A DNA stretch of 64,000 nucleotides from Muricea muricata (taxonomy: Eukaryota > Cnidaria > Anthozoa > Malacalcyonacea > Plexauridae): positions 4,402,001-4,466,000 of the forward strand of contig OY979725.1 of NCBI GenBank assembly GCA_963855995.1, written 5' to 3'. Below are positions 1 to 55,861 of this stretch, in pieces. The notes beneath the pieces are model-generated. The model was not told the DNA's origin and did no database searches. It saw nothing but the letters and a program-made list of their open reading frames with translations. Position 1 is the first letter of the stretch; each line of letters begins with the position of its first letter. Position numbers and translations under genes: made by a program.

Positions 1-370
1 TTAGTATATACTGAGGTCTCTGACTTCTGCTACCATTTTTAGGTTCTATTTTATATAATTTACATGCTAATACTAAATATGCATTAATGTGACTATGGAT
101 GTATTTCAACTGTGTAGGTTGCAAAATCCAAGATATTTTAATAAAGCATTTAATATAAAATTTAATATAAACAGATGGCTATATTGGACTTGGGCTTTAC
201 TCAGAGGTGAAAAATGTATCGGATCATTGTTCTCAGAGAGTATTTCAGGTTCACATTGACAAAAATGGGGACCAAAAATGGATTTGTACATGGGTTTACT
301 GACAAATTTTACTACTTTACTGCAATATTTTCTGCAAATGGCATAATTGATCGAAAAATAAAGAAGACCG

Positions 371-516
371 GGGGCCGGTTGTATAAAATTCTTAATCACT
401 TTTTTAATCACTGGTTTACAGTTAAATAGTAATTAAGTGCTAAATACGTTGTTCTGATTGGTTGATGTTTCCACTAATCATAGTTACCTTTAATCACTTT
501 TTATACAACCGGCCCC
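371..516. repeat. MITE, GGGGCCGGTTGTATAAAA termini
   Basis: Terminal inverted repeats of about 18 bp (GGGGCCGGTTGTATAAAA and its complement) bound a 146-bp segment with no coding content; TAATCAC motifs recur inside. A partial copy of the right half lies at 20965-21045. This is a non-autonomous DNA transposon; the superfamily is not clear. Confidence 0.6.
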
Positions 517-884
517 AAAGTGTTTCTTGTTTAAATTTGTGTTTCCTGTTTGTATCGCGCATAGGCATAGAAACACAAGGCAACTGGTCTTTTTAATTTA
601 TACAATTTACAAATGGCATACTTTCTTTTTTAAATTTTCACTTAATGCAGTTTCGTGTATATCCCATTCATCCTGTCGCTACCAACCTAATCTACGTACT
701 AGCTTGCCATCACTGAGGGCCTGTTGAGCGGGGGGAATTTGATGAAATATTACCCCAAAAGAGGATATATGATCCTAAGGGGTAATATTTTATCGAATTT
801 TCCAAGGGGAGGGTCTATAAATTATATGTGGTACTTGTACCAAAAAACAGGCGAAAAGAAAACATAACTACATGGAGTACATAC

Positions 885-3800
885 AATATAAAAAGGTCGC
901 CAGTTTTTATTGAGCATTTCTTCATCTGTAAGGCCTTCGATATTCCTGACTGCGTCCCAAATTGTTCTCAGAGCATTTCGTGTTGCCTTTTTGGCGTGTC
1001 TGCCATCTTTATGTTTCCACTAGATATTAGTATTTTGATCTCCGCCATTGTGAACATTAAATATGAAAATTTCGCACCATTTTTCAGCATTTAGTTGTGC
1101 GCGAGAGATCCGCGCGTGGGTATAGTGGTCGAATACAACGCTGGAGCATCTCGCCCTTCGATTGGAACAGAAATTTTCTCTATGAAGCTAAAACTGTGAA
1201 GTTGACGAGTGTTTTTACGTCACGTCTCACAGTAATTTAGCGTTGCCATAAATTTCGTTGTCATCTGGACGTGTTAATATTTTAAAATATAAAACTTTTT
1301 GACAATGTATTTTTGGGAAATTGCTTCAGAATTTCGCATCTTTGCATGGGCATTAATTTACCCAAGTTCGCTTCAATGCTACACCGAATCACACGTTTTT
1401 CGGTCTTTAAACCGATTTTTGAAAATTCGGTTCTGGTTTAGCCATGAGTTGCCAGACCTACGTAAGTATGACTCACCTCTGATAGCGAAATGGCCTCGCA
1501 AAACTTCTTCCATACGACATTGTGGATTGAGAGGTCATACAGCAAACGTACGGAACGTGCTCTAACATAACTTTCGCTGTCTTCCATTAATTTCCATAAT
1601 AAAACCGGTAGGTTAGTCTCCAATAACTGCACAATACATTCGGCTGAAATGAAACAATCAAATGAATTAATAATAAATGAAATTCAGTATAATTTGTATT
1701 AAATATTTATAGTAGAGGAAATAAGAGTACAAATATCGCATTTTATATAATAAACAACAATCATGAAATGCACGAAAGTAAATGTAAAACTCACCATCCA
1801 GTGTTGTAATAAGGTGCTGAAGGAAAAAGAGAGTAGAATCGCGCACATCCCAACATGAATTTGAACAATGCCTGACAAGTAGCTGATTCAAAGTTTCAAC
1901 ATTTACGTACGACGGAAACACTCCTCCCACCTCAGAAAACAAGCATTTTAGAGCCTCGAAACAAGCGCTAATTACCTAGATAAAGGAAATCACATAAATA
2001 GATACTCAATTCCCAATGAACAATAAGACAAACTTTTGAAATGGAAAAATTTAATAGCACAGCTGGAAAGAGCATCCTAAATCTCTACAATTGTGAAGTT
2101 TTATTGCGAAATATTACAAAACGTGAAAAATATAGAAATTTGCTAACTTTGCAAATTTTACGCGCGGTTGCAATAATTGTATTACGCGCGGGAAAGCGTT
2201 ACCACTATGTTGCAATGTGGGAATAGCCTATTTATTTTGCGTATTGGTCATGATTACAGTGCACAGCCCACGTTGATGTGAAAACGTTGCCTACTGTGCA
2301 TTCAAAAAGGTGTTGCAGATAAGTAATAAACAATTATTCCAATAGTTTAGTTATCCCTTTACAGTGTGTATAAAAAAACTGAACCTTTCAAATTCAATAT
2401 ATGCATTGTCGTAATTTGACAGCTCTAATCTCTCGTCAACTTAATATGCATAAATGAACACAACTCACAACTTATCCTCGTAGTTTTGTCCTATGAGTAC
2501 ACGACTTTGTGTTCTTACCATCCATTTGACAGGATGCGCAAAAACTGTTTGGTTTTTGCACTTCCTGTCAAACTGGACATATATTGTTAATATAGATACA
2601 CAAAACAAAACATTAATACCTGAATATCCTGGGAAACAAGTAGGATCTTGAGAAGCAAGTTGTAGCATTGCACATTGCCATTAAATGGACAGTCACCTAC
2701 AAAATAGAACGATCCCATAATGCTAACCTGCAACCAGCAACCGCCTTGCACATTATATTAACATCTGAATGATGAAACACAGCCTGGGTGCAAATTACCT
2801 TCGAAAACACCTCGCTTAAGACATACAGCGAGTGCCTTGATAAACAATTTGGTTGAGGAATGTTCTTGCAAGTAATAGTCATCAGACTGTTCGTTATGAA
2901 AATCCAGGATGTCTTTGCACCACAATTGAATGATTTTAACGACTGCGGACATTACACTTGTCTGTGAAGAAATGCAATTTGGTTGAAAACAATATTTCAG
3001 GAATTTTATAGGAAAAGCCTAGGAGCAATTTTATTCATTTCAAAACAGTGCAATTTGCAGAAAGCCTTATTCCGAAACACTATGTCACCTAACCTTACAA
3101 ATGTAAAGAAAACGGGAGGATTGTAAGATGACTAAATCAACTTGTGGTTAGGTTACATTCTAAATATCTTCCTAGCAACACTGTCGTGACTGTCTCAACT
3201 ACAAAATGAATACCAGCTAAAATCTGTCCATGCAACGAGTCCAAAAGCACAACACTGGAGCACTTTTCCCTAAATTCGATTACTTAATTTACAATAATTC
3301 TTCAAAAATTGCCTCTTTAGAAAGGTTTAATTTGCCGTTTTCGTTTGACTACATTTAACAGGTAAATCTTTGGCTACTTTTAATGATCTCTATCTGCAGA
3401 ATAACAATCAATGTATCCCAAAATATATCACTCGGATAAATTTTACTCATTTCAAACATAACTACTTTATCCATGATTCTGTCAAAAACGATTAACTGTA
3501 AAATGCGCTGACTTTATTTTATTAATCGACAGACTAGAATCTTTTTCATCGTTAATGAAAGCACGTTATTCGGCTGTAAACTATAAAATTTTACACCAAT
3601 CGTGACTTTATAAACACAAATGTATGAAAATATGCCATTTTGAAGGGTTATTTTCATTTACATCGTATTTGCTCAATTTTTCTTCAATTTTTGCAAAAAT
3701 GGTGATAATCGAAAGCTAAAAGATTGGTCTTTCAGGCTGCGAAAGACTTATTTCTCTAGATTAATGATCGATAATAATAGATTGATAAGAGCACTCCAAA

Positions 3801-6800
3801 ATTCGATTACCTTTTCTTTATACAACCTTACCTTAAGATGAAATTTTAAATACTCTTGGGTTTTGACTGTTTTTTAAGAGCTAAATACAAATATCAATTG
3901 CTCCTAAACCCAATCGCATTACCACTCGAATCAATGCATCTTTTTGTCTCACCTAATATTCCGCCCTCTCATTACCAGTTATCTTATTCCCCCTATACTC
4001 AGAGTGATATGTCTTGAGGGACACACTTTATTGTCTACCACCCTATCTATACCACAAACGAATTCGATTGCGGTTGAAAAAGAACGGATAGTGTGCAACA
4101 TTAAGGAACATATTCTAAATTTTAAATTTTAGTGTTACTTCATGTAAGGATATTAATAAATTCACAAAATGGCGCCCGACGTGGGGCAACTTGCTTTTCG
4201 AGAGTAAATTTTGAAGCATTTCCCTTTTGGGACAGTTTTGAAAAAGCAGTTCATAGAAACAAAAGTTTATCCTGTATTGACAAATTCAATTATTTGCATT
4301 CCCTGCTGGATGGTTCTGCGTTACAAGTTATTAAAGGCTTTGACGGAAGAAAATTTCCAAATTGCAATAGATCTTCTTAAACAGCGTTATGGAAATATAC
4401 AAGTTATTTTATCAGCCCATATGGATGAAATGTTGAAGCTTTAAGATTGTTCTGGTGATAAAGTATCAGTACGCAAAACCTTCGCAAAGTACATGATAAA
4501 ATCAACGTTAATGTAAGAGGACTTGAGGCCCTTGGAGTAAAAGCAGAACAATATGGTAGTCTACTCATCCCTACCATAATGTCAAAGCTACCAACGCAAT
4601 TACGAGTCCAAGTTGCTAGGAAAACTGCAAGCGAACTTTGGGAGATTAACGACACTTTAGAAATTATTCGAAAGGAACTTGAAGCGCATGACATTAGTGA
4701 GAGTGTTTGTACAAGTAATGATGAGCTACGAAGACAAAATGAATCATGGAAACAAAATGGACAGCGAAATCATATCGGCGAATCTCAGTAGCCAGCTTAT
4801 TTCTTAAAGATGGCAACAATGAACGAAAGATTAAATGGGTCTTTTGTGGGCAGAATCAATATTCAGCCCCTTGTCAAAAAGTAAAAGATAACGAGGAAAG
4901 AAAAAGCATTTTATGAGATCAGAAGCGATGTTACCTGTGTCTGCAAAGTGGACACCATGTACACGAATGCGAGAATGGTAGAAATTGCCGTTGGTGCAAT
5001 GGAAAACATCACCAATTTATTTGTAGCAAAAATACCAAATCACCTGCAGCAAAGGTTCCAGAAGATACCCAGAAGGAAGATGTGAAAGATGACAAGAGTA
5101 AAACCAAGGAGGGTACAACAACTACAACCCCAAAGCCTCGCCATCCAAGGTCCACATGCATAAGCTTAACACAGGAGTCCTGTCCGAGTACTTTTGGACA
5201 GTGGTAGTCAAAGATCGCATGCAACTAATCCTTTGAAACGTCTTGGTCTGCGGCCCGTAAAGAGACACTTAACTTGAATACGTTTGGGCAAGATAAATTT
5301 ACAAAACAGAAGTGCGACGTTGTTCATTCAAATCTGAAATAAAGCAAGGACGGCGAAGATATCAAGATTTCAACTCTTTGTTTCGAGAAAATATGTTCTC
5401 CTATACCCTCTAAAGTTCAACATCATTCCTACCAACACTTAATGGGACTGGATCTTGCTGATTTATCTCTTGCACAAACCAACAACCAGGATGATGGTGT
5501 CTTAGACATCTTAACAGGTTCGGCTTATTATTACGACATTGTTATGGGAAAAATCGTACGAGAAGACAGTGGGCCAGTAGCTGTCAACAGCAAATTTGGA
5601 TGGGTTCTTTCGGGGCGATCAACTAACGCGAGTCAAGGCAACAATACTTAACAAATAGATTTCATTTTTGCGTGCGTCTGTACTGTAATAGATCACAGAT
5701 GACGTCATAGCGTGTGAAGAAATAAAAAGTGCACACGAGACGCAGTCGAGTGCGTGACTTTTTGTTCTTCACACGGTATGGCGTCATCTGTGATCTATTA
5801 CAGTACAGAAGCACAAAAAAATGAAATCTATTTGTTTCATATTATAATAAAGTTGACAAAATTCATGCGAAGACCCGCGAAATAAATTAGCTAAATTACA
5901 TCACGCCATCAGTTGACGTCATCCGTGCGTGTGTACTTTAATAACACATAGCTCGCGACCAATGAAAATGCAGAATGAACACGTATTATTATATAATACG
6001 TTTTATAATATAGCATTTGTGAATCCTGAACTGGTTAAGAGCCGTGTTTACATAACTAAATGTAAACACGGAAAATTTCCCGCCACTTCTAAACACGGAA
6101 ATTTTTCGTATTCTTTGGGCTTTTGACTTTGCTATAATATTATAAAAAATTATAAAACATTTTTCCGTGTTGATATACAGTTATAACAACACGAGTGGAA
6201 ATTGGAAAAACGAGAAATTGTGAAGAATGCGCAGCTTCATGCGAGTTTGAAGACCATCATGTTAAATCCGATATTATTGCGTCTAAGACTAGGATCGCAC
6301 CGATACGAAAGCAGTCTATCCCTAGATTAAAACTCCTGGGAGCTACTATCCTGACTCAAATAGTTAGCTCCATTAGGTCCTCGCTGGTCTCGATTAGTGA
6401 ATCCGAAGTTTTATGTGGACGGACTCATTTACAGTACTTTGTTGGATTAAAACCGATAAGCCGTGAAAACAGTCCATACAAGGAAGAGTAGATGAAATTC
6501 GTCGGAGAGGACAAATGGATGTTCTGCCCACGAGAATTGAACATCGCAAATTTACCTTCACGAGGTTGTAGTGGAGAAGCACTGCTGAAAAACGATGAAT
6601 GGTTCCATGGTCCCAACTTCTTAAAAGAAAACAAAGAAAACTGGCCACAACCTTCTGGATGTAGTAACACAGAACGTGAAATCGCGTTAACGGAAACGTC
6701 CAAACGTTCTGACAAGCCAACAGTACATTCCCTTGCTGCCGTGGAAAAGGGAAATGTTCTCAAAGGAGTCGGAAAGGTAGTAGACTGTCACCGTTATAGT

Positions 6801-9800
6801 TCGAAGACAAAGTTGTTAATACGTGTAACATCGTATCTAGTGAAGTTCATAGCAAGGATTAAAAAACGTAAAGCTAACAACATGTCTGAACTATCAGCTG
6901 ACGAACTATTCGAAGTGGAAGAGATGTGGATCAGAGATGTTCAAAGCGACGAGTTTCCGGCAGAATTTCAGCAATTAACTACTGGTACGAAAGCTTCGAG
7001 TTCGAAATTTAATCAATCTTCTTCCTGCCAGGCATCATGTTACAGATTTAATAATCGAGGAAAACAACGAGTCATCAAATCATACAGGCATAACGAATAC
7101 CACATCATACCGCATTCGAGAAAGATATTGGGTACTTCACGGAAGGCGGTTAAACGAGTTCTACGAAAATGTGCAACTTATAAAAGATTAGAAAGGAAAC
7201 CGTATACCCCACCTACCATCGTGCCGTACAAGCGACGATCCACCCATTAGTTACACTGGGCTAGATTTCGCCGGACCCCTCAACGTCAAGGAAGAATCAA
7301 AGTGTAATCAATGATCAACAATGAAATCGTATATCGCTTTATTTACTTGTGCGTTAACACGAGCGATTCACCTAGAACTATTGCCAAGTTTATCAACCGA
7401 AGGATTTCTGCAGGCCTTTCGAAGGTTAGGGTTAGGGTAGCAGAGAAGTTCCGAGAATGTTGATTTCCGATAACGCAAAGACGTTTAAAGCGGCTAGCAA
7501 GGAACTGTCAAAAATCAAGCGTTCTTCCAAAATTCAACAGCATTTGGCAAATAAAGGGGTTTCGCGGAGATTCATTGTGGAAAAGGCCTGGCACGGGGGG
7601 TTTGGGGTTTTAACTTACAAACTCCATCGGGCGAGCTATGCTATCGTTTGAAGAATTATTTACGTCATTGGTGGAGATCGAGGCGACGTTAAATAATCGC
7701 CTTATCACCTCTGTTTACGATGACGAAGAGGGGCTATCATATCCTCTCACTCCGTCCTGTTTAATTTACGGGCGCAGAACGACAACTTCGCTCAATGACA
7801 GCCAGCACGAGATGGTGAGCATAAACAAGTCTTTGACGAAGAGAGTGACACATCACAGGAAGTTATTGAATGAATTTGGCAAACAATGGTAGCGTGAATA
7901 CCTATAAAGCCGGTTTTCCACTAGCGAATTTTTTCGCGCGAAGCGACTTTTCTTTTTTGTCTAAGCTCAATTAGTTCCGCATGATTGCAGCTGAAAGCTC
8001 AAGAACAAAGGAAAAAACTCGCTAGTGGAAAACCGGCTTTAAACATTCGTGAGTCAACAACGGCTTCTAACAACGGCAAGCAATAGAGTGCTTTAGCAAA
8101 CACGACGCGACGTCGACGAGGACGTGAAAATGACGTGTACAGACAACAGTCATCTACTTCCGGTTTGATCTAGAACGTCAGATTTGTCTTCTTGCAAGTA
8201 TTTTTGTGTTTTCATCCCGCCTGCTTATTTCCGTGGATATTTCAATCAGTTGTCAAGATATAGGCAAGGAAATGCTTTCTAAGGATGGCCTTCTGTCTCT
8301 GAAGATCGTGTCTGAGCAGTCGACAATTTCTGGAAGAGTAAACTGGAAATATTTTGTTGTTTTAAGGAGACTAAGTTTGTCATAGTTTTCGGAAAAAATA
8401 CAAAAGCTCAAGGTCATTTTTGAAAGTAAATGCTTACAGTTCTGGGTGATTCCATCAGGTTTGTGCGTTTTCAGTATAATATAGCATGTCAGTGATTGTC
8501 CTGGTGACATTTAGAAATGTTTTCAATAGTTTTTTTCTGGCTGAAATCTGTTTTTTCTCGGGTTTTTTAATTGTTGTACTTTTTTGAACTATGTCGATGT
8601 CGATAACGATGTCGAGGACGCAATAGCCAGGGGGGGGCATTGTTATTTTAAAGAACGAGAATACAAAGTGTATATTTTGGAAAACAGCGAATGTCGAGGA
8701 GCAGATTTCGCATAACAAAATTTTCGTATACGAAATCTGCATTAGGCCACAGATCAGGTATAGAACCAGATGTCTCACTAAGCAAAATTTATGTCCGCGA
8801 TTTTGAAGAGCTCGCGTCAGCCTTCGTGAGATTTGCTTGCGTCAGATTTGCTCGCGTCAGATCGCTCGCACCAGATTTGCTCGCGTCAGACTTGCTCGCG
8901 TCAGACTTGCTCGCGTGAATCTTTCTTGCTAAAAAGAAGCAGCGTATCATTTATCAGTAAAATTCGTCAAGAAAATAAAGACCAATAGGTAGTTGCGCCT
9001 AAAATCGCCGTTTAACTGCCAAATTCTGCACTTCCCTATCTTTTTTCTAATAAAAAATATGCATTACACTTGCCAGAGGTATTGCGTGTCCAATTCGTGC
9101 TCTCACGTAAGCAGTACACGTCAGCGTGTTATTGCGTGAGCAATTCGTGCTCTCTGGTTGCGTCATCTCGCGTGTGCAATTCGTGATCAGCCGAAAAATC
9201 GCGGACACGAAAACATTAGGAATAGATAGGAAGTGAGACATCTGGTTCTATACCTGATCTGTGATTAGGCTTCAATGGACAAGTCTCGTCACAGGCGGCC
9301 CAGTTCAGTGTGTAGTTTCATATAGAGATCAGTAGCGAGCGGTAGCGTATTGTTTTACATATATAAGATACATAAGGTAGGCAACTAAATTTAACCTGAC
9401 GAACATATAACTTTTGTTAAACACAAAATACATCGCTCGTGGAATTAAAAACAGGTAAAAATTTATAGCACGTTAATCTCCGATAATTTTACTACACATA
9501 TTCAATGAAATTTGTCTTCAATGTTTCCGAATGGATGCAAAATTTGAACATATTTTTCATGTATTGACAAAAAATTTCTTGTCCCGATGCGGGATGCCAG
9601 AGGTTGGCGTACACGTCAGCCTTTAAAAAGCATTCATAAACTCCTATTGGTTTAAATGAATATTTCGTTAAAAGTGCACCAATAGGAGTTTATAAATGCT
9701 TTTTAAAGGCTGACGTGTACGCCAACCTCTGGCATCCCGCATCGGGACAAGAAATTTTTTGTCAATACATGAAAAATATGTTCAAATTTTGCATCCATTC

Positions 9801-12800
9801 GGTAACATTGAAGACAAATTTCATTGAATATGTGTAGTAAAATTATCGGAGATTAACGTGTTATAAATTTTTACCTGTTTTTAATTCCACGAGCGATGTA
9901 TTTTGTGTTTAACAAAAGTTATATGTTCGTCAGGTTAAATTTAGTTGCCTACCTTATGTATCTTATATATGTAAAACAATACGGTACCGCTCGTTACTGA
10001 TCTCTATATGAAACTACACTCTGAACTGGGCCGCCTGTGGTCTCGTATACCCCTCAGACCTTCGGTATAAAAGTTACAATATGTACCATATAACTTCTGT
10101 CAGAAATGATATCTGTTGTGACTGTTAAAGACTTGGCAACAGCAGAACTCGAAAGACAATCTTTCAATGTCTTATTCAATATTCCAAGAACTGTCTCATA
10201 GCTGTCGTTTGTCTACCAAATAAAAACAAAAAATAACTGTTAATATATTTCTCATTTATCCATGGTCAATCTTGACATGGTCTGGAAACACAGCGAACTT
10301 AAAAGCGTTTACAATGAGCTATGATTTTATGTTGAATTGGCTTCACCGAGCACAAATCTATTAAAAGTTTGATTATTAATATTTCGATAGTACGGTTGAG
10401 TGCTTAGGCGAGGCAACGCTATTGGACGATTGCTTCATTATACCAAAAATTCATTGTCTTTAACGTGCATAAGTCTGCATAAACACGAACAAAAAGATAG
10501 AACAAAGACGTTGGCTGAGTCTCCCGACCATATTTAGATTGACTTTGATTTATCGAACTTATCCTGAAGGGTTTATATTTGCATTTGGACGGTTTTACTA
10601 ACAGTGGCGGATCCAGGGTAAGTCAAAATAAATTATAGCAGCTCAATTTCAATTTCAAAATAACTTTATAACAATGTCATAGGTTATGAATTTCAAAAGA
10701 ATAAAATCTAACCAATGAAGTTGCTTTGAAGGTATTTTAAAATGTAAATATATCCAAGAATGAGCTGTGGTAATTTATTTTGACTTACGCCAGATCCGCC
10801 ACTGTTTACTAACATGCCGTTTGTGGCGTCCTGATGTCGTTAACTTTCATTTAAATTGTAAATGATTAAAAAGTTCACAATCTGGAGAGCGCAGTTTTCT
10901 CACAAACTAGTTGCTACTTTATTTTCACTAAATTCACGACAATTTTTTTCATCGTTCAACAACAACAAGGACCACATAGACCGTTTGGCTGAACTGTTAA
11001 AAACATTTAGGATATACCGCCATTTGCAATTGAGCGTGACCCCTGCGTTTTTACGTGTTTGTTTCGTATTGATGTTTATTGGCCAAAATTTCACGTTGCT
11101 ATGGGCGGAACCAAAAATAATTCATAAGCAAAAAACAAAGGAAATCATAGCCGAGAAGGAATTTTTATGTGATAAAACACAGTCACGTAGATTTTCATTA
11201 AACATTTGCCTCGACTTTCTCGGCCTATATATATAGCCAACATCTATATTGAAAAATTGTTTCGTAAAAAAACGGACGAGATTGACATAAAATAGGTCGC
11301 TTTTGAAGTCATGAAGATACTCGTGTGTAATAAATTTACTGCATTGTTTGGGAAAAAATGTCCAAACATGCAGCAAGATCTGCTCTACTTCTCAACAACA
11401 TTCTAGCATAAATCTACCATAAATTAGGAAAAGCGCGCGAAATCAGCATAATATAATCACTCCTGCTCTTGTTTTGAATTATTGAATCACAAATATTACA
11501 TAAAATAATCTTCACGTACTAAGCACTGTGTTGACAACAACCTCTTGATAACAATATCGACACTCTGGTGTGCCAAATGATCCGCATCATTGTCTTCCAT
11601 CTTCCGCAGTGTTGCATGAACAGGGAAAGCGACCAACGCAAACAGTAAACACAAGGCAGGCTCACAAACCCTTCTATTTGTAAGGTCTCTACATAGAAAT
11701 ACAGGGTGTATCAAAAAAAAGGTAATCGAACTTTGCAGTGCTCTAGCGGGTTCATTATACAATCTACAGAAATCATTCTTTCGCAGGCGGAAAGACCAGG
11801 CTTTTAGCTTTCGATTGTCATTATTTTTGTGAAATTTGAAGAAAGATTGGGCAAATACGAATCAAATGAAAATAGCCGGTCGAAATCGCATATTTCCACC
11901 TCTGAGCATTATTAGGGCAGCGAATAAGAAAAGAAAATTTCATTAATCATTTATTTGTCACGAGAAACAATTAACATCACTAATAAAATGCCAGAAGTTT
12001 ACTACCTAAGCTAAAATTGGTCCCAGCTCTCCCATCTGGGAACTCCCAACGGTGGAAAAAATGCGATTTCGACCTGCCATTTTTATCGCATTTGTATTTG
12101 CTTGATTTTTCTTCAAATTCTATAAAAACGATGGCAATTAAAAGCTAAAAGCCTGGTCTTTCCAACTACGTAAGAATTATTTCTGTATGTTAAATATTGA
12201 ACGCCCTAGAGCACATCAAAGTTCGATTACCCTTTTTTTGATACACCCTGTATATAGGAAACATAACGTCAAATATGATTAGGTATGTTCAAAAGAGAAA
12301 GTTATGGTTTACAAAAACACTGCTATCATAACCATTTTACAAGGTACATATCAAAATTAAGGTATCGTTTTACTGGGGCAAACAGAAATGGCAAGCTTTA
12401 ACCGCCATTGTGAATGCGCTTTTTATTATATTGCAGACAGTTAGATACCCAACAACTACACAATGAGATTTTTTGCATACTATCATTACTGTTGATTTCA
12501 GGTCACTTTTCAAAGTAGGGTTCCCAAGTTTTTGATTATTCCTAATAACATTTACCAAATTTGGAAGATTGCGTGAGAACTTTCAAAACCAAATTCACAA
12601 CTTGGTGAACTAGGTGGTACTGACGCACCGAACTAAAGTACTGAACTAAAGTATTGAAGTACCCAATAAATTACTGAAGTACTGAACTAAAGTTCTGAAT
12701 TAAAATACTGAAGTAAAGTACTGAGGAACTGAAGTGAAGTACTGAACTAAAGTACTGAAGTGAAGTACTGAACGAAAGTAGTAAAGTACTGAAGTACTGA

Positions 12801-18640: not shown

Positions 18641-41992
<23,352 letters not shown>

Positions 41993-48823: not shown

Positions 48824-49402
48824 AACATTGGCAGCTATTTATTCAGGGTTCACTGCATGGTTCAATTCTGTTCTTAGAACAGGTGGGAATTTTGTCTGAG
48901 CATGCGCTAGAGTTCGCGCGGTTAACATAAAAGAGACTTGGGAGAAGTAAATTTAGAAATTCGATTCAGGGTTGCCAGCTTGGCGCCAAAAGCGCCAAAT
49001 TTCTCGATTTTGGCTTCTTTCGACACTGTTTGGCTACTAAAAATTTGATTTGGCTTCTCTCTATTTTCTGGCTTCTTTTTGGCTTTTTTTTCAAAAAGAA
49101 AACTTATGTAACTTTTCAAACATAGTCACGCATTCATCAGTATAAGTTGGTTATTTTAGTGTAAACTTTTTCACAAGGATATTTAGTTGGCTAACTTTTG
49201 CTAGTCATGCATATTAATTCAGCTATAATGCATAATTTAGCAGAATTATAATTCTAGTTTGCTACTGTCTTCGTGGACGTCCGACCTTTTGGGAATAAAA
49301 ATTGTTTTTATTTTAATATTTATAACTTTTCAAGTTTTTAAACTTAAAAATTTATTTTCTAAACTCTAAACTGGCTGTTATAAAAGTTTCAAATTAGTAA
49401 AA

Positions 49403-51435
49403 TTGAAGATGAGCTTAAGCAAAGCGACCACGACTGAACGGGGAAACAAATGGAAAAGTCATTACGACTCGGCACGAAAATTCAAGGCTGAATGGCAAAA
49501 GAAATATCCTTGGGTAGAAAAGGCAAAAGATGGTTCGGATGATGCTCACTGCTCGCTTTGTCGACAAAATATCACTCCACGATTATCAAATGTAGACAAA
49601 CACGAACAGACTGTGAAGCACAAAAGACAAGCTAAGTTTGTATCTTGTAATAAAAAGATATCACTGGTTCCCACCAAGGAAGATGAACAGGTAAAAGAAA
49701 TGGAACTACAACTTGCTGTTGGTATAATATGTCACTGCTCAATCATGGCAGTGGACCATCTTGGAGAAATCATGGCGCAACATGGAAAAGGAAGTAAGAT
49801 GGAAAAGATCAAGCTGCATCGAACGAAATGCACCCTGCTCATGAAAAATGTGATTTCCCCTGCTCTGCATAAAGATCTCAGCGCAGATATGGCCGGTCAG
49901 AAGTATTGCGTCATCGTGGATGAATCGACAGATGTTTTCTGCAGCAAACTTCTTTGCGTGGTAATTCGTTACTACAGCAAGTCAGAGAAAAGAATCGTGA
50001 CATCGTTCCTAAGCCTGATACCGGTGGTGAAAGCAACTGGTAATGACCTGTTTGAAGCGCTAAAGAGTTGCCTAGAAGAATCTGGCTTGGATCTGACGAA
50101 TTGTATTGGATATGCGAGCGATGGAGCTTCGGTTATGGTCGGGAAGCATAATTCAGTATGGTCGAGAATTAAAGAAGGATCGCCAAATTGTATCCTGATT
50201 AAATGTATTTGCCATTCCTTAGCACTCTGTATCAAACGCGCCTTCGATAAGATGCCTGCAAACCTTGGTTTTATGCTGACTGAAAGTCCAAAGTGATTCT
50301 CTAAGAGTGGAGTTCGTCGTGACACCTACAAGCAACTCTTCGAGACATTCGAAGGATGCGATGTAGATAGTTCTTCAATACCTCTTCCCTTCGAGAAGTG
50401 CAATCAAACCAGGTGGTTGGTGCGAGGATAAGTAATCTACAATATCTTAGTAAACTGGGAGATATTGAAGACTTACTTTTCCTTGGCCGAATGTGAGGTA
50501 GAAGCGAATGTTCGTTACAAGGCCCGCCTCATCAAAGAAATGCTCAACGATCAAATTAATCAACTGTACTTTCATTTCTTGTCCCCCGTGGTTACCGAGT
50601 TTGAGAGAGTCAATGCATTTTTCAAGCAACTGACACCGAAGCGAACGAGATGGTAAAGGAGCTCAACCTCTATTATAATAGCTTGAGTGGTCGAGCCTAC
50701 GATTCTTCCGGTGTTCCCTTGCCGGCTGATGAAGTTGACTACGGGGCAAAGTTTGTGTTCGAAGCAGCTGCATTACTTCGTAGCCAGAAAAATGATGAAA
50801 ATACTGCTAGAAGAGTTCGCGAAACGTACAGAAGATGCCATTCAATGCTTCTAGAAGCAGCTGCGCAAGTCCAAAAACGCCTTCCATCCTCAAAGGACAT
50901 TTTTCATGGATTATCCCTTCTGCACCCATCTCACATCCTAAACCAAGTTGGGCGTGTTCCTTTGGCTAGCCTTCCAATGCAACATCTTATCAATGAGAAG
51001 ATTGCAGAGATCGATAACTAGTATCGCAGCATTTTGTATGTCGATTGGAAAGAGACTAACGTTTTTAAAGATGGCATTCCTACTGAGGCTGTCAGCTTTT
51101 GGTCTGGTGTGCTGGAATATCAAAACTTGCTTGGGAACAGCACCTATCACGATCTTGCTACCTACGCCCTAGCTTGCCTTGCTACGCCAACAAGCAATGC
51201 AGTGGTTGAGAGAATGTTTTCGTATGTTACGGGAGTCAAGACGAAATCGCGCAACAAGATGAGTTCTTCCTTGCTCGAAGCCATAGTCAGAATCCGCACC
51301 CATCTGTACTTTAGAGGCAAGTGCTGCAAGGACTTTGTGCCAAGCAAAAGAATGCTTGAGCTTTTCACGAAGGACATTTATAAAAACGCGAACAACAGCT
51401 CCTCGGCAGATGATGAAGACGAACTTCCATTCTAG
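49403..51435 (+). pseudogene. hAT transposase, three stops and a frameshift
   Basis: The first segment has a zinc-finger-like CSLCRQNITPRLSNVDKHEQ with a later H, then YCVIVDESTDVFCSKLLCVV (first catalytic Asp region), CIGYASDGASVMVGK and CICHSLALC. Later parts include CNQTRWLVRG and the hAT C-terminal dimerisation region YALACLATPTSNAVVERMFS. Breaks: TGA at 50294, TAA at 50429, a frame change near 50635, and TAG at 51019. Order and content fit a BED/TTF-type hAT transposase of the DUF4371-like lineage. It is not functional. Confidence 0.9.
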
Positions 51436-51746
51436 CTATACACATAAAGACCTGTGACTAAGATGTAGACTGTAAGTCTAAAATTACTGACTATATAGCG
51501 AAAGACTAGCATGTTAAATACAATTAGATGTTTGACGTTTACTAATTACTGGTAGTATCTATATAAATAAACCAGTAGCAGATCATGAATGATGAATTTG
51601 AATTCTGATTCACTTACTGTCACTTGTATGTCAGACTAACCGATTAATATTGGTATATTTCCTATTTTCATCCCAGTCCCCTCTCTAAATTTCGATTTTG
51701 GCTTCTTTTGGCTCAGTTTGGCTGCATTTTACTCATAGATATAGTA

Positions 51747-52633
51747 ATGTACTGCCCCAACTGCAGATTGTATGGGCTTCATAAAACACAATCCTTTCCA
51801 AACCCACTTTTGTAATTTTGTCCAAAATGTTTTTATTAGCAAGCATTTCTGGTGTTAAAAATATGACCTTAAATTTTGTGAGTTCCTCAAGATATGAATT
51901 TTGAACATCACATGGGACTTCACCAGTAATTTTGCATGCTGCAATGTCAAGAGCCAAACATCGACTCAGGAGGTCATTAATTAGTGACAATGTTGGAACT
52001 ACAACAATAGTAGGCTTATCAGCAAGAACAGCAGGAAGCAAAAATGTCAAACTTTTGCCACCACCAGTGCCTAGAACTCCAAGAACATTTTTTTGTCCAT
52101 CGTAGACAATATAATTTCTTTTTGAAGCGGCTTGAAAGACTGATGATGGAAAAAGCAATTCAATGTTGTCTTGATGAGGTGTTCTCGCGAAGTTGTGTCA
52201 GATACGTCGTGGTGAAATACTGCTTGGCGTGTCAAAGGAATGTTTGTGTTTTCGAGACTGTCAGATTCGACATTGCATGTGGAAGTCTCCTTCGCTGGCT
52301 TTTCAATTTTTAAAAGGCTCACGCAGGGTTTACTGTTCACATCGAATACAACAGTAAATACAACAATTTCTTCACTTTCACAGCATTCGCAAACGATTTC
52401 CAGCGGCAACAATCCGGCGTTGAGCTTGAAGCTAAGCCGACCTGCCGCAAAACAAACCCGAATTTCGTCGCTGCTTCAAAACTGCTGCTAGCTTTTAAAT
52501 TTACAAATACATTTGAAGAGCTAACTTTATAATTGGATATTTTATCCTTTTCAAAACACGGAATTCTTTCAATACTTGCCAATATTTCAGTAATTTCGTC
52601 GTCCGAATACGTCGCGCCTATTGCGGCAGCCAT
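51747..52633 (-). pseudogene. RecQ-like DNA helicase fragment, frameshifted and truncated
   Basis: Opens at ATG 52633 (MAAAIGATYSDDEITEILAS). A first frame change near 52430-52400 leads to LPLEIVCECCESEEIVVFTV and then FFHHQSFKPLQKEIILSTMD, the RecQ motif 0 pattern. A second, in the A7 run near 52092, leads to NVLGVLGTGGGKSLTFLLPA (motif I), VVVPTLSLINDLL (Ia), ITGEVP, FLTPEML and IVFYEAHTICSWG (motif II, where RecQ has DEAH-x(2-3)-QWG). The first acid of DEAH is Tyr here. Sequence stops at the end of motif II, so motifs III-VI are lost. Non-functional as it stands. Confidence 0.75.
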
Positions 52634-53160
52634 GTTTTACAACACGCGTTTATAATACCTTACCCTACCCCCATTAGGATTGGTATTTGCAATGCGCAAG
52701 AATGATGCGCAGAACGGTTCAACCATGTCGGGTTTTGGCAGGCATCTCCTCGATTTTTTCTCACCTTCCATGACAGAGATGCCTGCGGAGGAGGCTATAG
52801 TAGAGCTAGATTGCTGACGTATACCTAGCGCGCGTGACCCCCAATAGAAGAATCCAAGATGGCGTCGCAACCGGGCAAAAAAACTAGGAATAGTATTACG
52901 AAAAACAGGTTTTTGGGCTTTTTTGATCGTTTAACTGCTGCGAATCACGTTCAACTGGACTTTTTTGAAAATAAGTCACTATTGCGGAGGTTTTGAACCT
53001 GAAATGAGACGAGTGGGCTAGATTCTTACAAAATTATCGTTCGCTGAAGATTCCAAGGAGTGGACGTTTTGACCGGTTCCGTTAGTTTGCGTGGATTATT
53101 GCACTTTTAACACTTCGAATCACGATCGATCGCGTATATTTAGGAAACGATGTTTATTAT

Positions 53161-54365
53161 CTATGTTTTAATTGTGAAAAGGAAAGCGTTTGCCGAATTT
53201 TATGAAAAAATATCGTGGGTTAATTTCCTCAGTATCAGCAGCTATACGCCGGCTATTATGACTGCACATCCACCTCCACCTGGAAGGTAGAATTTTGTTT
53301 GTTTGTTCATTATGGTTTTTATGAGTTTATGGGAAATGATTGTTTGTGTAGAATCTGCTGACAAAGTAGCACAAATGTAAAAACAAATGATTTAAATAAG
53401 TATGAACGAAACCCATGTTTCCAATTGGTTTCTATTGATTTATGATTATTGATATCAATAACATATAATTTGTGTAAATCTGAGAAGCTAAGCATAGTTT
53501 TAGAGACTCATGATATTATTAAAGTGTATGTGAACATGCATGGGGCTTGATAACATGCATGAATCAAATTAACATTTAATATACTTGAAGCAAAGATCTA
53601 TTAAAATGTTAAATGACCAGGGTTTGTGTCATCAAAACTCAGAAAGTGTCTGGTATTATAAATTATAGATGTACAGCTTAATAAAGTTCAAAATACATAT
53701 TGCTGGTTGCCAATGTGCTTCTGATTTTGCTCAAAATCAATTACAATATTGAAATCTGCACATGAAAATCTCACCATTTGTCAACAAGCTGTGCCTGTGA
53801 CAAATGTGTTGCAAAGATGAAAACAAGTTGTGAAATGCTGTAATTTTTTAAAGCTCCTGTAAGCTTGTTAACAAGACATTTATAAATGCTTGTAAATGTG
53901 TGGGAATGTAAACACAGTTTTTGCAAAACATTATTATAAAATCAGATATTCTTTAGGATTGCTATAGAGATAATTAAGCAATATAACTTGCTACAGAGAT
54001 AATTAAGCAATATAACTTGCTACAGAGATAATTAAGTAACATTGACTTCTGCCTATAGATATCAATTTTCATTTGTAATAAATATGACATCTCTGCAAGC
54101 CCAAAGCAGAACCCTGCATGTCCATTATTACCTTATCCCAACTTAAAGTCAATCATGCTGCCTCCTGCAAAACTTGTAGTGTACCAGTACTGAAGGACTT
54201 TACGCAGATGTTCAATTTCACATTTAATACTAAGCAAAAATCAAAATAACACTCAAAATCAAAATCACTAGAAGTAGTAATTTGCAAAAAAGTTAAATTT
54301 ACTACAAGAACATACTAAACAACCAGTTGTCTACTCCAGAAGTCTTTAACGAACGATATTTGATA
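53161..54365. other. Non-coding centre of the nested element
   Basis: AT-rich, no ORF of interest. Three direct copies of a ~30-bp unit (GCTACAGAGATAATTAAGCA/TATAACTT) are at about 53955-54040. Confidence 0.55.
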
Positions 54366-55861
54366 TATGATAAACATCGTTTTCTAAATATATGCGATCG
54401 GTCGTGATTCGAAGTGTTAAAAGTCCAATAATCCACGCAAACTAACGAAACCGGTCAAAACGTCCACTCCTTGAAATCTTTATCGAACGATAATTTTGTA
54501 AGAATCCAGCCCACTCTTCTCATTTTGCGCTCAAAACCTCCGCAATAGTGATCTATTTTCAAAAAAGTCCAGTTGAAGGTGATTCGCAGCAGTTAAACCA
54601 TCAAAATAGATCAAAAACCTGTTTTTTGTAATACAATTCCTAATGTTTTTGCCCGGTTGCGACGCCATCTTGGATTCTTCTATTGGGCGTCACGCGCGCT
54701 AGGTATACGTCAGCATCTAGGTCTACTATATCTATGATTTTACTATGCGTTTGGCTTTTTTCGGCCCAGGCCACCTGGCAACCCTGATTCGATTTTTGAG
54801 CGTTTTAGGTGGATTTTTGACCTCGTTTTTTCTTCCAACCCAGTTTTTATTAATTTATTGAATTATTGGGAAGGCTAGGAAGGTATGAGAACGTTCGGAG
54901 GCTAAAAAAATATAAAAATGCAACTTTTGCGTAACCTTATACATTCGAACGGCCTCGGATTCCCACGGAAATAGCTAATAGTTCCTCCTAGCCCGAATTT
55001 TGAGGTGAACGAATTATCTCCCAAAATAAGTGTTTCAAGCAGCAGTTTTAACCATATTTCGTTTTGAGGCACTCGACTAGATTTTGAAGTATTTTAATTT
55101 TTGTGATTTTATTGTTTGATCTTCACCCCCATAAGTCACCCTGTATTAAAGTGAAGGGAGAGGGAAATATATTTGCATGATTTCAAAACTATTCACATTT
55201 TCTGAATCAATAGACTCCAGTATTTCAAGTGATATGCTTTAACGAACAGGTATGGCAAAAACATGTCATTTCTAGTGGAATATTCAGAGGTACCTAGTGG
55301 GTCTAATACAGACTATGTCAGACAGTGGTGCCGTTTTCGTTATCAACCCGAATTTTTACATCAAAAATACTTTGATTAGTGCAGTAAGAAAGCTTTGAAG
55401 ATTGATTTAGACATGCTTTCGTTTTGAGGCTCTCCACTAGATTTTTTACAATCTTGAGTTGAATATTTAGCCCCACAGAATAATTTGATTGGTCGTTATT
55501 ATTTCATGAGCGTTGCGTGTCGCGGAAATCTAATAATAATAATATAAACCGGAAAACCGGAACCTCTTGGACTGTTTTCATTATTGGTTTCGACATTTTT
55601 GTTTTCCTCCAGACGATCCTTATTACGAGGCATCTTGCAAAATTGAGCAGTTGCAAAGCCATTTGTTGAGACCAGTGGTTGAGACAATAACAAAAGAAAG
55701 AGAAAAGTGTTGTCATGCGTTGAATTATCGTTCATGTACTGCTTGACACCCAATTAAATTTTGTCTTTGCAATATCCATCACAGCTACTTGCCTGTGCAC
55801 GCAGGAAATCTGAGGAACATTTTGGAGATCTTTCCTGCATTTCACAGTACGCATACACAAA

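Follow-up and report, generated by a model that had tools for sequence, protein, structure and literature searches.

A RecQ-like helicase fragment within a P-type MITE of Muricea muricata is very probably the remnant of a nested AcademH-like transposon

Results

Structure of the locus

The window, i.e., the whole stretch of DNA that was analyzed, comprises 64,000 nt of the Muricea muricata genome (contig OY979725.1, positions 4,402,001 to 4,466,000). It contains an element of 3,003 bp (51734–54736) with borders that could be read directly from the sequence. The element has perfect inverted tips of 13 bp, CATAGATATAGTA and TACTATATCTATG, and sequence inspection revealed exact copies of the 8-bp target duplication ATTTTACT on its left (51726–51733) and on its right (54737–54744). 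The exact borders, the inverted ends, and the duplication had all been described in an earlier note on this DNA and were verified. By our own arithmetic, an exact 8-bp repeat combined with a 13-bp inverted tip is expected about 0.0005 times per 64 kb in random sequence with equal base frequencies. A scan of the window yielded at least four structures with an 8-bp repeat and inverted tips outside TA repeats, the element at 51734–54736 included. The reality of the borders is better supported by the relatives in the genome, because in 16 of 20 of them the same canonical ends are flanked by an exact 8-bp duplication. Two further structures in the window were a near-perfect palindrome of 750 bp (9290–10039; 96.3% self-complementary, a foldback-type element) and a pair of diverged inverted ends (24639–24879 and 33213–33476; 84–90%), which lie about 8.5 kb apart and flank TA-rich arrays at 26.8–29.2 kb.

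The 3-kb element is nested within a larger element on the plus strand (48967–54786; 5,820 bp including nested elements). The latter has 12-bp inverted tips (CAGGGTTGCCAG and CTGGCAACCCTG), and sequence comparison revealed its target duplication, ATTCGATT, at 48959–48966 and 54787–54794. Its open reading frame at 49370–50296 matched the Pfam domain DUF4371 with 25.6 bits, which is below the cut-off of 32.1, and no match in Pfam was found for the presumed C-terminal stretch (51202–51432). The tips, the 8-bp duplication, and the sub-threshold DUF4371 match indicate that this outer element is probably a hAT transposon; the label is probable and not proved, because DUF4371 remained below the cut-off and the C-terminal stretch had no Pfam match. 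Of the earlier claim of an insertion into a hAT element, the nesting was thus confirmed and the name of the host is probable.

Self-comparison of the 3-kb element uncovered an inverted repeat of 369 bp (52796–53164 versus 54363–54730, 92% identity). The right arm is complete to the right tip (54363–54736). A distance of 1,051 bp separates the left arm (52796–53164) from the left tip. This space is occupied by a RecQ-like piece, which breaks the left arm after bp 13; the arm resumes at bp 7–9. The heptamer TATAGTA is present on both sides of the piece, at 51740–51746 and at 52796–52802. The RecQ-like gene is on the minus strand, contains frame shifts, and is truncated just past helicase motif II (YEAH). 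The longest open frame (51733–52197, minus strand) encodes 154 aa and includes motif I (GTGGGKS) and motif II. A Pfam search with the piece retrieved DEAD (2.4e-13), and all 37 matches among solved structures were RecQ-type helicases, with RECQ5 as the best (4.5e-13). The inverted repeat, the position of the piece within its left arm, and the broken RecQ frame are not mentioned in the earlier note. Searches of viral contigs with the M tip (see below) and the RecQ piece gave no match, as expected for a eukaryotic genome.

The carrier is a member of a high-copy MITE family

The family of the carrier, designated M, was characterized by searching the genome with the 357-bp right end. The search returned 977 first-look candidates, on which the copy number rests; 40 of them were scored at 97–100% identity and one further candidate at 77%. 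Apart from the window copy, this left 39 scored copies, 20 of which were fetched; one copy at a contig end and 18 lower-listed ones were left out. Their structure was directly evident: M is a high-copy family, and a typical copy is 1,947 bp long, non-coding, and bounded by inverted ends of about 375 bp. The exact 8-bp duplication was missing from four fetched copies, three of which have a damaged end (L021, L027, and L035), while L030 has good ends and unlike flanks. The left tip continued directly into GACCTAGATTGCTGACG in 18 of the 20 copies, 16 of which had the exact 13-bp tip. The search for further copies that the earlier note had proposed retrieved the same ends and the 8-bp duplications, but the RecQ piece was present in none of the 20 copies. 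Two copies, L030 and L038, were lengthened by other inserts. The 5,586-bp copy L038 was considered as an autonomous M and was rejected, as the insert of 3,656 bp (L038:2758–6413 of the oriented copy) proved to be a palindrome of repetitive sequence, with arms composed of short repeats.

In the window, M is represented on the plus strand by two parts, namely the outermost 13 bp of its left inverted end (51734–51746), which were compared with the 18 copies with a continuous left tip, and the remainder from its bp 9 to the right end (52798–54736). From M bp 7 onwards, the window copy is 98.6–99.6% identical to the 13 copies compared. No long open reading frame, and therefore no own THAP/P transposase, was found at 53100–54420, and no coding sequence was detected. 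Across 17 M duplications, T was found at position 2 in 12 cases, A at position 7 in 12 cases, and C at position 8 in 10 cases.

A coding relative assigns M to the P superfamily

The genome was searched with the P transposase profile PF12017, which gave 150 scored matches of 338 candidates. P-type transposases are abundant in this genome; the listed matches were all above the cut-off, and many reside in frames of 700–900 aa. One P locus, L069, was analyzed, in which the PF12017 match and an M copy are no more than 3 kb apart. The M copy lies at L069:5948 (C2:6192147), 56 bp from the end of the P element (L069:461–5891). The P element itself was observed in full: it is 5,431 bp long, has inverted ends of 455 bp (94% identity) that terminate with CATAGAYATAGTAGG (CATAGACATAGTAGG and CATAGATATAGTAGG), is flanked on each side by the 8-bp duplication GGTTCCCG, and contains an open frame for a P transposase of 860 aa. 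The Pfam matches of the protein were TNP-like_RNaseH_N (1.3e-42), GBD (2e-43), Tnp_P_element (2e-21), RNaseH_C (2.5e-16), and THAP (1.9e-13), i.e., the THAP, HTH, RNase H, and GTP-binding domains as in P transposases, and comparison with the structure of the Drosophila P transposase gave 5e-34. The ends of L069 and M share blocks of sequence. Their local alignment scores were 57 and 68, compared with a maximum of 26 in 500 letter shuffles, and BLAST aligned one end with 76% identity over 92 bp, with higher values in blocks.

Judged from these sequence features, M can be classified as a non-autonomous member of the P superfamily, i.e., a P-type MITE, because its coding relative has homologous ends, an 8-bp duplication, and a P transposase. 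M is filed solely as non-autonomous because it has no long open reading frame; a coding capacity of its own is not defining for a MITE. The L069 element is a relative of M and not necessarily its source. An assignment of M to hAT was also considered. The duplication motifs given in PMC3276498 are GTCCGGAC for P and GTNCGNAC for hobo (hAT); the M motif fits both equally and was not decisive, and the decision came from the P transposase of L069 with its homologous ends. The earlier note had expected longer copies to reveal the transposase, and a longer relative with homologous ends indeed did so, the enzyme being of the P type. It had also named a full-length relative with a P transposase and without RecQ as an argument against its own reading, and L069 is such an element.

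The RecQ piece is the right end of an 11-kb transposon

The 1,049-bp RecQ piece was found at seven places in the genome, i.e., the window, three copies with 98–99% identity, two partial copies with 73–74%, and one 38-bp end. Parts of M were sought in the loci of the other six and were not found; the window alone joins the two. The three close copies share further sequence to the left of the piece, and all of them end on the right at GGAGGAGGCTA. Extension of one copy reached its other end. The structure of the transposon, designated X, could then be read directly from three full copies on contig C1 (11,017, 11,014, and 10,971 bp), which have common 19-bp ends TAGCCTCCTCCGCAGGCAT and are all flanked by exact 9-bp duplications (AGTATTACC, CATTGTAAC, and CATCTGACG). 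The fragment in the window (51747–52797, minus strand, 1,051 bp) is 98.7–99.5% identical to these three copies, has the same right terminus GGAGGAGGCTA, extends from X position 9966 to the end (numbering of copy A), and contains the 5′ half of the broken RecQ-like gene. Its last two nucleotides (TA) coincide with the first two of the left arm of the M repeat. The suggestion that an element had captured a host gene was rejected, as the copies with 98–99% identity are bounded by transposon ends.

X encodes the remaining RecQ domains, i.e., Helicase_C (6.4e-17), RecQ_Zn_bind (3.2e-10), and RQC (7.9e-8), and the RecQ frame is interrupted in all three copies. In addition, X has an ORF with ankyrin repeats and an ORF for a candidate transposase. 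Among seven ORF pieces searched, six of which were from X or its RecQ gene, the candidate transposase matched only DUF6589, below the threshold (E 0.026). Three ORF pieces compared with NCBIfam gave only ankyrin-type matches. A 20-bp pattern of the X end, with up to one mismatch, gave at least 56 forward and at least 64 reverse matches in the genome, compared with none for the control. Seventeen short relatives were fetched; the 9-bp duplication was exact in five, at least eight of nine positions agreed in 13, and four had no duplication, whereby nine of the 17 had identical flanks and are hence not independent. An exact 9-bp duplication was also present in L046, another short copy, of 287 bp. 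MITEs of 124 bp with X ends (C1:6739065–6739188 and others) recurred with the same flanks, and therefore this MITE appears to be carried within another repeat.

Formation of the composite

At the right junction, the X terminus is followed by TAGTAGAGC (52798–52806), which corresponds to M bp 9–17 and differs by one substitution from the M family sequence TAGTAGACC. It has the position of the right copy of a 9-bp X duplication. Of the left copy, five of the nine bp survive (TAGTA, 51742–51746, equal to M bp 9–13), and they are followed immediately by X position 9966. The left junction has no intact X end; the insertion and the deletion are deduced from the right junction, where the duplication copy differs from the family sequence at one base, and from the five residual bases of the duplication on the left.

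We infer that the locus very probably arose as a nest of DNA transposons on three levels with a subsequent deletion, and that the RecQ sequence is a remnant of X. M would have inserted into the hAT-type element, generating the duplication ATTTTACT. X, with about 11 kb, would then have inserted into the left inverted end of M at TAGTAGACC, generating the 9-bp duplication. Finally, a deletion would have joined M bp 13 to about X position 9966, whereby X would have lost about 9.97 kb (1–9965) and its left duplication the final 4 bp. M may have been moved by a P transposase acting in trans and X by its own proteins; the last step may have been a simple end-joining deletion, and the composite of M and the X fragment was presumably never mobile as a unit. 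The identity of 98.7–99.5% to the X copies indicates that the X insertion is not old relative to those copies.

P elements are mobilized through their ends. Since the two M tips have been preserved, as has the 8-bp duplication, M together with the X fragment might, by analogy with P elements, have entered the hAT element as a single unit. However, the assembly contains no second composite, only one of the seven RecQ places being beside M, and the left inverted arm has been shifted 1 kb away from its tip. The donor might have been lost by excision, yet this requires an extra step, and an entry as a unit is regarded as highly unlikely. Still a little less credible is a gene capture, in which gap repair after P excision switched its template to X and back, so that M gained the RecQ fragment without transposition of X. 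A left joint without an X end would agree with such an event, and the 7-bp TATAGTA on both sides of the piece could result from a slipped template switch. However, the right joint lies exactly at the X terminus, for which a random switch would have no preference, and M resumes in the register of a 9-bp duplication (TAGTA before the piece and TAGTAGAGC after it). The view of the earlier note, in which RecQ would be the own gene of a transposon family with such 13-bp ends, agrees with the window copy, where the piece lies directly inside the tips, but it can practically be dismissed: RecQ belongs to X with its different ends and 9-bp duplications, it is missing from the 20 fetched M copies, and the 860-aa frame of the coding relative of M encodes a P transposase.

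Under the nesting and deletion scenario, the RecQ gene is a passenger remnant of X, truncated past motif II, and neither captured nor functional cargo of M. The 13-bp ends are the residue, after the deletion, of much longer inverted ends. The RecQ-like identity reported previously was correct, whereas its attribution to the surrounding element was not. The supposition of a non-autonomous or decayed copy of a helicase transposon family applies in that M is non-autonomous and the helicase stretch stems from a helicase-encoding transposon family, but the carrier is not that family.

Discussion

The composite in the window is an ordinary case of genome nesting and involves known kinds of transposons, a P-type MITE and a helicase transposon. 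The features that had seemed to point to an undescribed superfamily are accounted for by M as a P-superfamily MITE and by RecQ from the AcademH-like X. Chance nesting and a deletion had mimicked a new superfamily of helicase-bearing transposons with short ends, and this is corrected here. Useful annotations are a high-copy, long-ended P-type MITE together with a coding relative in one genome, and three AcademH-like copies of about 11 kb with exact 9-bp duplications.

The AcademH lineage of Academ is reportedly due to Kojima 2020. With its RecQ helicase and its 9-bp duplications, X would fit AcademH, and it is filed as AcademH-like because its candidate transposase gave no more than the sub-threshold DUF6589 match. 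As described in PMC10045372, AcademH elements encode a helicase and have duplications of 9 or 10 bp, AcademX elements have 3 or 4 bp, and this difference is tied there to the encoded helicase or nuclease. The RecQ-type (SF2) helicase and the 9-bp duplications reported in that source for AcademH are shared by X; in contrast, the candidate transposase of X was unmatched to the Academ DDD/E transposase. The ankyrin-repeat ORF of X may be a further difference. KolobokH, presented in PMC9587614 as a RecQ-encoding DNA transposon of fungi, shares this type of helicase gene with X. However, Kolobok duplications are TTAA, whereas the X copies have 9-bp duplications without a TTAA motif, and therefore X was not assigned to Kolobok or KolobokH. 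IS3EU, with TA..TA ends, was also rejected, as its duplications usually have 6 bp versus the 9 bp of X. A literature search for RecQ, DNA transposon, and '8-bp TSD' found no match among the papers covered, and none of these was found to name DUF6589. It seems unlikely that X represents an undescribed lineage of helicase-bearing DNA transposons outside AcademH. The candidate transposase matched nothing above the threshold, and the features of such a lineage would be the length of about 11 kb, the TAGCC...GGCTA ends, the 9-bp duplications, the RecQ gene opposite the candidate transposase, and the ankyrin-repeat ORF.

M resembles the P superfamily (Drosophila P, zebrafish Pdre2, and Galileo), for which 8-bp duplications and tips starting with CAT are described (PMC10983969, PMC4168063), and its coding relative has the THAP, HTH, RNase H, and GTP-binding domains of that superfamily. 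The target motif GTnnnnAC of the 17 M duplications is likewise shared with P, for which PMC3276498 gives GTCCGGAC. The hAT superfamily, including hobo, shares with M 8-bp duplications and a similar motif (PMC3276498), but M has ends that are homologous to the ends of L069, which encodes a P transposase. Pdre2 of zebrafish has 13-bp tips (CATACCTGTCAAC) and, like M, an 8-bp duplication according to PMC10983969 and PMC4168063. In contrast to Drosophila P, Pdre2, and Galileo, no coding sequence was detected in M, and the end sequences differ. Galileo, as portrayed in PMC4168063, has duplications of mostly 7 bp compared with the 8 bp of M; its long inverted ends and abundant non-autonomous two-ended copies are likewise found in M, and this long-ended Drosophila transposon is the nearest known analogue of M.
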